Source: Pseudomonadota bacterium (GTDB lineage Bacteria > Desulfobacterota > WTBG01 > JAPLJA01). From it: 33,896 nt of DNA. The position numbers were made by a program, and so were the translations under genes. Below, piece by piece: positions 31,431 through 33,248 of the stretch (the first letter of the stretch is position 1; every line of letters begins with the position of its first letter). The stretch spans positions 1 to 33,896 of the forward strand of contig JAPLJA010000141.1 in NCBI GenBank assembly GCA_026388815.1, written 5' to 3'. Under the pieces are notes generated by a model. That model had not been told where the DNA came from and ran no database searches. It saw only the letters and a program-made list of their open reading frames with translations.

Positions 31431-32546
31431 TCACCTTTCCTTCCACCTTACTACCTGTAGCACGGACGGATCTTTCCAGTATTGACAGGGATTGCCGAGA
31501 ATGTAGTAGAGAACAAACTTGTCATCAAAGAAGAGAGAGCTGTTCGTCCCCACATTCAGGTTCTTGTGGCGGCAGATGGTGTGATCAGTGCCGGGATTTT
31601 TACCGTCATGGTCAGTTAATATTTTCATAATGCCTTTCATCGAGAGATCGCTTTCCATTTTCAGGAGCATCCTGCACCGCTCATAGCGTGCATAGGAACT
31701 GGTATTGAAATCTTCCCGGTCGTTCCGTTCAGGCATGAGGCGGTAATGGTTGGTGGCAACAACAAAATGTTTATCCCCCTCTGTCACGCCATAGTCAACC
31801 TCAACCCTGTCTGGGGTAACCTCGACCCGTGCCATCTTACGTGCCTTGAAATCCATGAAGGTGAAAATAGCCCCGTTGTGGGCAAAGCGGCCACCCTTTT
31901 TCAGAAATGACCGGAAGGCCTCGACGGCCTCTTCCAGGGAACCGCACTCCTGCATGACTTTTCTCACAAACATCTCAGGCGGAAGGCCGTAATTCCTCTT
32001 GCTCGGGTAGGCAGCATTAAAGACTACAGCCAGACCCGCGGAATTCTCTCCCAGTGCTACTCCTGTATAACCTGGTTGGTAGAAGGAGACGAATGAATAC
32101 CCCATGCCTGGATTCGGCTTGAAAATGATGATAGAGCCTCCGAGGGCGTAGAGATAGTTCACATCAGTGTTGTGAGCGAGGAACGAGCCGTCTTTCGATG
32201 TCACGGCAAAGTCGGTGCAGCCTTTCCTCTCTTTCATGTAGGTACTGGTTACAAAGAAGTTCCAGATGAGCACATCCTTCCAGGCCTCTCCAGAGGAAAT
32301 GCCGAGCGCTTTAACCTCACCCCTGGCAAGCCCCTTCATCTGGCCGAGGATGCTCTGGGGTATGAGGTGTTTTACCCTGTCAAAATAATAAGCTGCCTTC
32401 TCAGGGGGGAAGGGCCTTTTCAGGAACAATGCTGTCCGGTGGATGCCCTTTGCAAACTCCGGCCTTGAGCCCACCTGGTATCCCATCTCCTCCCAAGTGC
32501 CGGAGACGACGACAACCGGATAGCTCTTCGTACTGAAGAGGGACAT
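31431..32546 (-). CDS. C45 / acyltransferase-type Ntn hydrolase
   Basis: A 371-residue protein related to acyl-CoA:6-aminopenicillanic acid acyltransferase and the phospholipase B-like group. Cys110 in KGCTDFAV is the candidate nucleophile exposed by autocleavage after Gly109. FLAHNTDVNY, SFYQPGYTGVALGENSAGLA, HFVVATNHY and SYARYERCRMLL are the conserved strands and arginine regions of the fold. The substrate is unknown: an acyl amide or peptide is likely. The start ATG shares one base with the stop of a 38-residue membrane ORF upstream (TGATG), so the two are coupled, and that ORF may supply the membrane anchor. Confidence 0.85.
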   Translation of the reverse strand: MSLFSTKSYPVVVVSGTWEEMGYQVGSRPEFAKGIHRTALFLKRPFPPEKAAYYFDRVKHLIPQSILGQMKGLARGEVKALGISSGEAWKDVLIWNFFVTSTYMKERKGCTDFAVTSKDGSFLAHNTDVNYLYALGGSIIIFKPNPGMGYSFVSFYQPGYTGVALGENSAGLAVVFNAAYPSKRNYGLPPEMFVRKVMQECGSLEEAVEAFRSFLKKGGRFAHNGAIFTFMDFKARKMARVEVTPDRVEVDYGVTEGDKHFVVATNHYRLMPERNDREDFNTSSYARYERCRMLLKMESDLSMKGIMKILTDHDGKNPGTDHTICRHKNLNVGTNSSLFFDDKFVLYYILGNPCQYWKDPSVLQVVRWKER

Positions 32547-32662
32547 CAAGACAGGTGTGCGGAAGTAGTAAGTCCACAGAGAAAAATCCCCAGCACGAGA
32601 ATAACGAGCAGGGGGATAAAAAATACCTTACTGCGGTAAAAACGGGTTTTTTGTTCAGCCAT
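32546..32662 (-). CDS. Tiny single-helix membrane protein coupled to the C45-type gene
   Basis: A 38-residue product with a basic head and one hydrophobic helix (VFFIPLLVILVLGIFLCGL). The start ATG has GAGGTC 7 nt upstream. Its TGA overlaps the next ATG. It could be a small partner protein, or the original signal anchor of the C45-type hydrolase separated by a frameshift. The translational coupling suggests a functional link either way. Confidence 0.6.
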   Translation of the reverse strand: MAEQKTRFYRSKVFFIPLLVILVLGIFLCGLTTSAHLS

Positions 32663-32784
32663 TGTTTGACCTCTTTTGAGGTTAAAGATGGGGAGAAATG
32701 TATTGCGAGTATACCTTATGTTGTACGAAAAATGAAGGGCAGTCCAGGATTTCTGGCAACAAGGAAATATATACGCTTTTAACA

Positions 32785-32813
32785 TTGACAACGATCGTAG
32801 CTTTTGTTATTGT
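32785..32813 (+). promoter_or_regulatory. Promoter of the RRM gene
   Basis: TTGACA (32785-32790), a 17-nt spacer and TATTGT (32808-32813) form a good housekeeping promoter. It gives a leader of about 115 nt before the RRM start codon, containing the terminator-like hairpin at 32853. Confidence 0.65.
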
Positions 32814-32852
32814 GCCGATATCGCTGAATGCTTTTGCGGTGCGCGTGTACAT

Positions 32853-32890
32853 AACCCCAAAGGCTTTCTTAAGCCGCGGGGTTTTATTTT
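32853..32890 (+). terminator. Terminator/attenuator hairpin in the leader of the RRM gene
   Basis: AACCCC (32853-32858) pairs with GGGGTT (32878-32883), inside it GGCTT pairs with AAGCC, and TTATTTTT follows. It lies between a strong promoter and the coding region, with no gene in between, so it may act as an attenuator. The RRM product could bind its own leader; that is inference. Confidence 0.6.
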
Positions 32891-32933
32891 TATGGCAGGC
32901 GTAAAACGTTCAGCCGGAAGAAAGGAGAAGAGT

Positions 32934-33248
32934 ATGGGACGCAAGTTATACGTAGGGAATCTTTCGTATGCAGTTACGAAAGAAATGCTGGAGGAACTCT
33001 TTGGTAAGGTAGGAAAGGTTGAATCTGTTAACATCGTGACGGACAGATATTCAGGACAGTCCCGGGGATTCGGTTTTGTTGAAATGGCCAATCCAAACGA
33101 AGCAAACGAAGCCATTAAGCAGCTCAATGGCCAGACTGTTGCTGAGCGGCAGATCATCGTGAATGAAGCGAGGAGTGACGGGAAGAAAGGTGGCGACGGT
33201 GGGGGCAGGCGGTTTGGCGGAGGCGGAGGCGGGAAGCGAAGGTATTAG
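32934..33248 (+). CDS. RRM-domain RNA-binding protein
   Basis: A 104-residue protein with one RNA-recognition motif. RNP2 is KLYVGNLSY (4-12) and RNP1 is RGFGFVEM (about 44-51), followed by a Gly/Arg-rich tail (RRFGGGGGGKRRY). Bacterial Rbp proteins of this type bind mRNA and are often cold-inducible. The start is ATG 32934 with AAGGAG close upstream; an in-frame ATG at 32892 sits at the end of the leader hairpin. It is the only intact gene in the last kilobase. Confidence 0.92.
   Translation: MGRKLYVGNLSYAVTKEMLEELFGKVGKVESVNIVTDRYSGQSRGFGFVEMANPNEANEAIKQLNGQTVAERQIIVNEARSDGKKGGDGGGRRFGGGGGGKRRY

Follow-up and report, generated by a model that had tools for sequence, protein, structure and literature searches.

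A putative transcription attenuator with mutually exclusive predicted hairpins ahead of a bacterial RRM-protein gene

Introduction

Among described systems, the idea nearest to the locus analysed here is the Chlorobi-RRM motif (RF01697), whose name ties it to RRM genes. Table 1 of PMC2864571 rates the motif as a probable RNA, likely to act as a cis-regulator and unlikely to be a riboswitch, and the listing in that paper, the only one that a search of the literature by the name of the motif brought up, gives it for the Chlorobi only. Our comparison with it is one of match scores.

TRAP, which binds repeated triplets, differs from the regulator considered here in that the latter, a candidate, would be an RRM protein that controls the gene encoding it. 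The likeness lies in the layout: as set out in PMC4347634, antiterminator and terminator are mutually exclusive, and binding of the protein lets the terminator form. CspA, CspC and CspE, as portrayed in the same source, are also small RNA-binding proteins that act on terminators in the context of cold shock; however, they carry a cold-shock domain instead of an RRM and they prevent terminator formation (PMC4347634). The cyanobacterial rbp genes are alike in another respect, encoding single-RRM proteins, some of them with a glycine-rich tail, and conserved boxes in their 5′ UTRs are linked to the cold response, but the available portion of that report makes no mention of a terminator/antiterminator pair (PMC9333190).

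As for the RNA that such proteins recognise, the bacterial RRM protein AB-Elavl is reported to bind AU-rich RNA at nanomolar strength (PMC9313427). CLIP-seq of RbpB is reported to point to AU-rich sequences, with a preference for single-stranded regions, and to place a site on RbpB's own mRNA, in which the authors see potential autoregulation (PMC11697453). The control of bacterial RRM genes seems little described in the literature that we searched, though in the phylum studied here 205 of 345 genomes contain an RRM match at E<=1e-14. Among the matches listed from open-licence literature, no title or abstract opening presented a terminator/antiterminator leader for an RRM gene, and these matches likewise included no example of an RRM-controlled transcription attenuator, which does not establish its absence from print.

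Results

The window (the whole stretch of DNA analysed, 33,896 nt in length) carries on its plus strand, at 32934..33248, a gene for a protein of 104 amino acids that consists of one RRM and a Gly/Arg-rich tail. The RRM_1 profile (PF00076) covers residues 5-74 with an E value of 3.5e-24, which places the protein in the RRM family, and we take the motifs KLYVGNLS and RGFGFVEM to be RNP2 and RNP1, respectively. Relatives of solved structure were sought by sequence, and the best 60 of 302 include HuD (1fxl), the cold-inducible RNA-binding protein (1x5s) and an RNA-binding protein of Acinetobacter baumannii (7qzp). The good ribosome-binding site that the original prediction had ascribed to the gene is in place, with a Shine-Dalgarno sequence, AAGGAG, at 32922..32927 on the plus strand and the ATG at 32934.

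Further upstream, a sigma-70-type promoter can be proposed on the plus strand at 32785..32813. Its -35 element, TTGACA (32785-32790), is separated by a spacer of 17 nt from a -10 element, TATTGT (32808-32813), that is extended by TG at 32805-32806; the promoter that had been claimed for this leader is thus present, with a match of 10/12. Judging from its position, transcription would be expected to start near 32818-32820, and the distance from promoter to ATG is 149 nt. In the 3.9 kb scanned there are four promoter-like sites, this one being the sole 10/12 site, whereas shuffles yield 4.3; by itself, its score is at the chance level for the region, and the support for the promoter comes from its position and from the f12 leaders described below rather than from the score. 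The earlier description of the interval between promoter and terminator as free of genes is a fair one, as the ORF at 32828 comprises just 8 codons (MLLRCACT, with the stop ending at 32854) and has no Shine-Dalgarno sequence. For a 47-residue part (32761-32901) of a longer ORF (32698-32904), 0 matches at E<=1 were found in 16 other genomes of the class, and its own genome returned one weak second place (E 0.63).

The hairpin of the leader occupies 32853..32883 on the plus strand (AACCCC-AAA-GGCUU-UCUU-AAGCC-GC-GGGGUU) and is followed at 32884..32891 by a U-rich tract, TTATTTTT, which agrees with the stable hairpin and T-rich run originally predicted. Its folding energy is -16.5 kcal/mol (z -3.5), a value that 2 of 200 shuffles attain. 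Because the AAT-family gene upstream of the leader is divergent, lying on the minus strand, this hairpin is not the end of that gene. A simple terminator scan did not list it, probably owing to the internal loop in its stem. The distance from the U tract to the ATG is 42 nt, within which the promoter scan lists 0 promoter-like sites. The AAT-family gene itself (31431-32549, minus strand) appears by eye to begin with a signal peptide encoded in a different frame, at 32546-32663 of the window, and this frame break suggests a frameshift or an assembly error near 32575.

Of the original proposal of a possible attenuator, the hairpin, the promoter and the gene stand, and to these we add an element that it did not contain, namely an antiterminator. 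A U-rich strand at 32830..32840 (GCUUUUGCGGU), which we regard as the antiterminator 5′ strand and as a candidate regulator site, is predicted to pair with 32854..32864, both on the plus strand, in a duplex of 10 pairs with one C-C mismatch and a loop of 13 nt. Since 32854-32864 lies within the 5′ arm of the terminator, the two structures are mutually exclusive. When growing transcripts were folded end by end and either structure was read from each MFE fold, the antiterminator was the MFE fold at transcript ends 32866, 32870, 32874 and 32878 (-10.9 to -15.1 kcal/mol), and the terminator was within the MFE fold at each of six later ends, from 32882 onward (-21.2 kcal/mol and lower); the antiterminator is thus the predicted fold until the 3′ arm of the terminator has been transcribed.

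The antiterminator duplex has an energy of -13.6 kcal/mol versus a mean of -5.4 for dinucleotide shuffles of the upstream stretch, 0 of 5000 of which reach it, and with a slightly shifted arm the duplex (-12.7 kcal/mol) is reached by 2 of 5000. It also ranks first, with the lowest shuffle fraction (0/1000), among 142 terminator-like hairpins (29 of RRM genes and 113 of controls, at <=-12 kcal/mol and with the T run 10-150 nt before the start), as it does in another comparison of 24 RRM and 83 control hairpins. The folding energy of the whole stretch from 32820 to 32866-32868 is, on the other hand, ordinary (in two framings, shuffle fractions of 0.10 and 0.22 with 2000 shuffles), and what the evidence favours is therefore a specific pairing rather than structure in general. 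Leader DNA matched only itself among 58 genomes searched, with 0 matches in the 57 others, and hence the window antiterminator offers no test by covariation.

In the read-through RNA, an outer helix is predicted on the plus strand within 32823..32914, formed by approximately 32823-32847 with 32893-32914; it would enclose the terminator hairpin, take up the antiterminator strand and leave the Shine-Dalgarno sequence unpaired. This fold reaches -41.1 kcal/mol (z -2.0), and the shuffle fraction of the outer-helix duplex is 0.026. Such inverted arms in 32823-32914 might hint at a mobile element of the MITE kind, a reading that we rejected because the leader is single-copy in its genome.

Several of the nearest RRM genes belong to f12, a Syntrophaceae-like family of the same phylum. 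Its leaders are strongly conserved, with promoter, antiterminator, terminator, Shine-Dalgarno sequence and ATG ahead of a close RRM homologue, and one of them (L172, from the f12 genome G095) is identical to a leader of a Syntrophaceae bacterium (L051). A promoter with TTGACA and a match of 10-11 of 12 stands 119-152 nt before the ATG in 12 of 13 f12 leaders, L128 being without it, and in 11 of these 12 no ATG occurs before the terminator (L234 has one). The consensus block reads TAAAAAGUUUUUGGG-AACCCCCAGAGRCUCUUUAGAAAGUCYUGGGGGUUUU and is followed by the Shine-Dalgarno sequence and the ATG; in this block, the 5′ arm of the terminator contains CCCAGAGRC, the pairing partner of the conserved GUUUUUGGG.

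For the 13 f12 leaders, the RNAalifold consensus is the antiterminator, with 3 of 10 pairs compensated. In the alignment 93.3% of its cells are paired, and its three doubly changed pairs are reached by 0 of 500 shuffles, each compensated pair resting on one sequence only; slid by 1-3 columns, it still shows 0-2 doubly changed pairs. Before the 3′ arm has been transcribed, 12 of 13 leaders are predicted to have at least 8 of 9 core antiterminator pairs in place (L236 has 6); once the leader is complete, the best fold gives the 5′ arm to the terminator in 11 of 13, the exceptions being L231 and L238. Taken singly, the leaders give antiterminator shuffle fractions of 0.001-0.14 for the best five listed and of 0.003-0.37 for four leaders in a separate test. 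The terminator helix is paired in 87.6% of cells and contains two compensated pairs, a number not above that of shuffles (123/500), and its U-run is short, with 4-5 U followed by AAAUU.

A covariance model built from the f12 leaders (R1) matches 14 of the 23 genomes of the f12 class, that is 14 of 17 within f12 and 0 of 6 outside it; under stricter filters it matches 11 of 345 genomes of the phylum, all of them f12. There is one sense match per genome in the 14 f12 genomes, and a further weak match, in G266, falls on the opposite strand of the same palindrome. Thirteen of the 14 sense matches end 6-14 nt before a close RRM orthologue, and the fourteenth (L263, G023:C10:76382-76445) lies before an RRM remnant whose match to the orthologue is confined to residues 59-98. 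In the three f12 genomes that lack the R1 element, a close RRM orthologue is lacking as well. The positions of the matches, and the absence of the element along with the orthologue, indicate that it is tied to one gene and is not a scattered repeat.

The window leader and the f12 leaders share the order of their parts, the promoter-ATG distance (149 vs 119-152 nt), a C-rich/G-rich stem and a U-rich antiterminator strand. Nevertheless, R1 gave 0 matches at E<=10 in the window genome, and in a 401-base search of the window it scored 8.6 bits (E 0.1), the opposite strand of that palindrome scoring 6.9 bits, so that by this test the window leader, lacking a convincing match, is not a member of the f12 element. 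Homology with f12, with the Nitrospirae leader L052 or with others, suggested by hairpins that look alike by eye, is likewise not supported, for want of a convincing R1 match. We therefore read the window and f12 leaders as instances of the same design, and it is this shared design alone that we claim for them.

Elsewhere, R1 found nothing better than E 1.1 in 12 other loci, and this away from the RRM leaders. L052 and L076 each have a promoter-like site and a hairpin, and the antiterminator of L052 is no better than shuffles (0.157). In L006, from G003 of the same class, a hairpin of -24.7 kcal/mol follows a TTGACA site, its T run lying 102 nt before the RRM start, and the candidate antiterminator there is not significant (0.097). 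A general enrichment of terminator-like hairpins at RRM genes was sought among hairpins whose T run lies 10-40 nt upstream of the start, in sets with a small number of duplicates (of 234 upstream stretches of RRM genes 230 are distinct, and of 854 of controls 847), and none is clear: 20/234 versus 57/854 controls at -9 kcal/mol, 14 versus 31 at -12 and 8 versus 20 at -15. A leader hairpin is thus not a class property of RRM genes. By eye, RRM leaders seem conserved within two further genome groups (L157, L176 and L169; L193 and L014), and L046 (Candidatus Binatus soli), L206, L210 and L146 share a different hairpin, AAGCCCGGGAATTAGCCCGGGTTTTCTG or close variants, with a T run 43-45 nt before the RRM gene.

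Chlorobi-RRM is below the Rfam cut-off in the window and in 11 loci including f12, and even the sub-cut-off matches obtained for the window leader, L259, L261 and L052 do not include it. Across 148 genomes of the phylum it exceeds the cut-off in 0 and gives weak matches (E<=1) in 12, none of them in the window genome; one weak, sub-cut-off match, in G156, lies approximately 20-30 nt upstream of the RRM match of that genome. No other family of Rfam release 15 attains its cut-off in the 11 loci including f12, and a permissive search of L259, L261 and L052 gave weak matches only. We regard as chance His_leader over the f12 element of L261 (25.8 bits vs a cut-off of 49, E 0.75), mir-5429 overlapping the same element below the cut-off, and DUF2815 at 32736-32775 of the window (E 7.1, below the cut-off).

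Discussion

We argue that the window leader is a transcription attenuator of the RRM gene whose regulator would most likely be the RRM protein itself, a reading to which we assign a probability of about 0.6. That the gene is subject to attenuation of some kind is likely on the strength of the predicted folds. Control by read-through, as envisaged in the original prediction, is supported, and the case for it has become stronger with the exclusive antiterminator and with the same conserved design in f12.

According to this attenuation model, RNA polymerase would start near 32820, and the U-rich stretch 32830-32840 would pair first with 32854-32864 to form the antiterminator. As long as the latter persists, the terminator would be blocked and the RRM gene read; displacement or blocking of the antiterminator would free the 5′ arm, whereupon the terminator at 32853-32883 would form and transcription would stop at the U-rich tract. 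Abundant RRM protein could hold the U-rich strand single-stranded, so that the terminator forms and the protein limits its own synthesis in a negative feedback. By analogy, the U-rich antiterminator strand would be a natural target for an RRM protein, and binding would favour termination, as with TRAP; given this strand and the two bacterial RRM proteins that bind AU-rich RNA, autoregulation is plausible. A wider proposal, in which the RRM protein would regulate its gene in the manner of TRAP and two or more lineages of the phylum would have acquired or retained a two-state leader independently, we put forward only tentatively.

The main rival to control by the RRM protein is a thermal switch, a protein-free kinetic cold sensor in which the antiterminator would refold to the terminator too slowly in the cold, and the gene would consequently be read at low temperature. 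Temperature control would have its basis in the modelled refolding barrier of the window leader (8.3 kcal/mol at 4 C, 6.8 at 37 C and 5.9 at 60 C), with a modelled relative refolding rate that rises from 2.8e-7 at 4 C to 1.4e-4 at 60 C. These barriers are, however, findpath estimates, polymerase slows in the cold too, and the barrier of an f12 leader (L230), 13.0 kcal/mol at 37 C, is high for a simple thermal switch; all in all, we hold the cold sensor to be unlikely. On the calculated barriers, it would seem that the window leader could refold unaided, whereas f12 would need help. Far less probable is ribosome-mediated attenuation through the 8-codon ORF at 32828, the translation of which would cover the antiterminator strand. 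Even though this ORF overlaps the entire antiterminator 5′ strand, with its stop ending at 32854, it begins only approximately 8 nt from the expected start, and its lack of a Shine-Dalgarno sequence, together with the absence of an ATG before the terminator in 11 of the 12 f12 leaders whose promoter has TTGACA, makes a leader peptide very improbable.

The hairpin could also be a constitutive partial terminator that sets a fixed low expression, the antiterminator pairing of the window being fortuitous. The window leader is without relatives among the genomes searched, its antiterminator has a C-C mismatch and a 13-nt loop, and its whole-stretch fold is not unusual, all of which would suit such an explanation, but a duplex that 0 of 5000 shuffles reach and that ranks 1 of 142 would be hard to reconcile with it, as would the recurrence of the two-state design in f12, where pairs are compensated; we judge it slightly less likely than the cold sensor. 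More doubtful again is a separate small RNA of approximately 70 nt, with the RRM gene read only by leakage. A promoter, some 65 nt and a terminator, uninterrupted by any gene, are a small-RNA layout too; against this, just 42 nt free of promoter-like sites in our scan separate the U tract from the ATG, and in all 13 f12 cases with an intact gene the RRM start follows the end of the element by 6-14 nt.

As an attenuator, the leader would probably be of a known general kind, in a setting that is little described in the literature searched. If the RRM protein is indeed the regulator, it would be a case of an RRM domain steering transcription termination in bacteria. The two-state leader also makes a concrete and easily testable circuit of three components, the leader, polymerase and the RRM protein, and the f12 element adds a conserved leader that stays below every cut-off of Rfam release 15.

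Two observations concern the surroundings of the gene and its paralogue. Beyond the 3′ end of the RRM gene, close to where the contig ends, partial profile matches mark short fragments of an FKBP (PF00254, 33265-33420) and of a ZIP transporter (PF02535, 33573-33794), which suggests decay or misassembly. In the RRM paralogue of the same genome (L002, G000:C304, 1785-1895, minus strand), the Shine-Dalgarno sequence and the ATG are buried in a long predicted hairpin (z -1.4, with 20 of 200 shuffles as good), and the leader of this paralogue is a possible translational thermometer.
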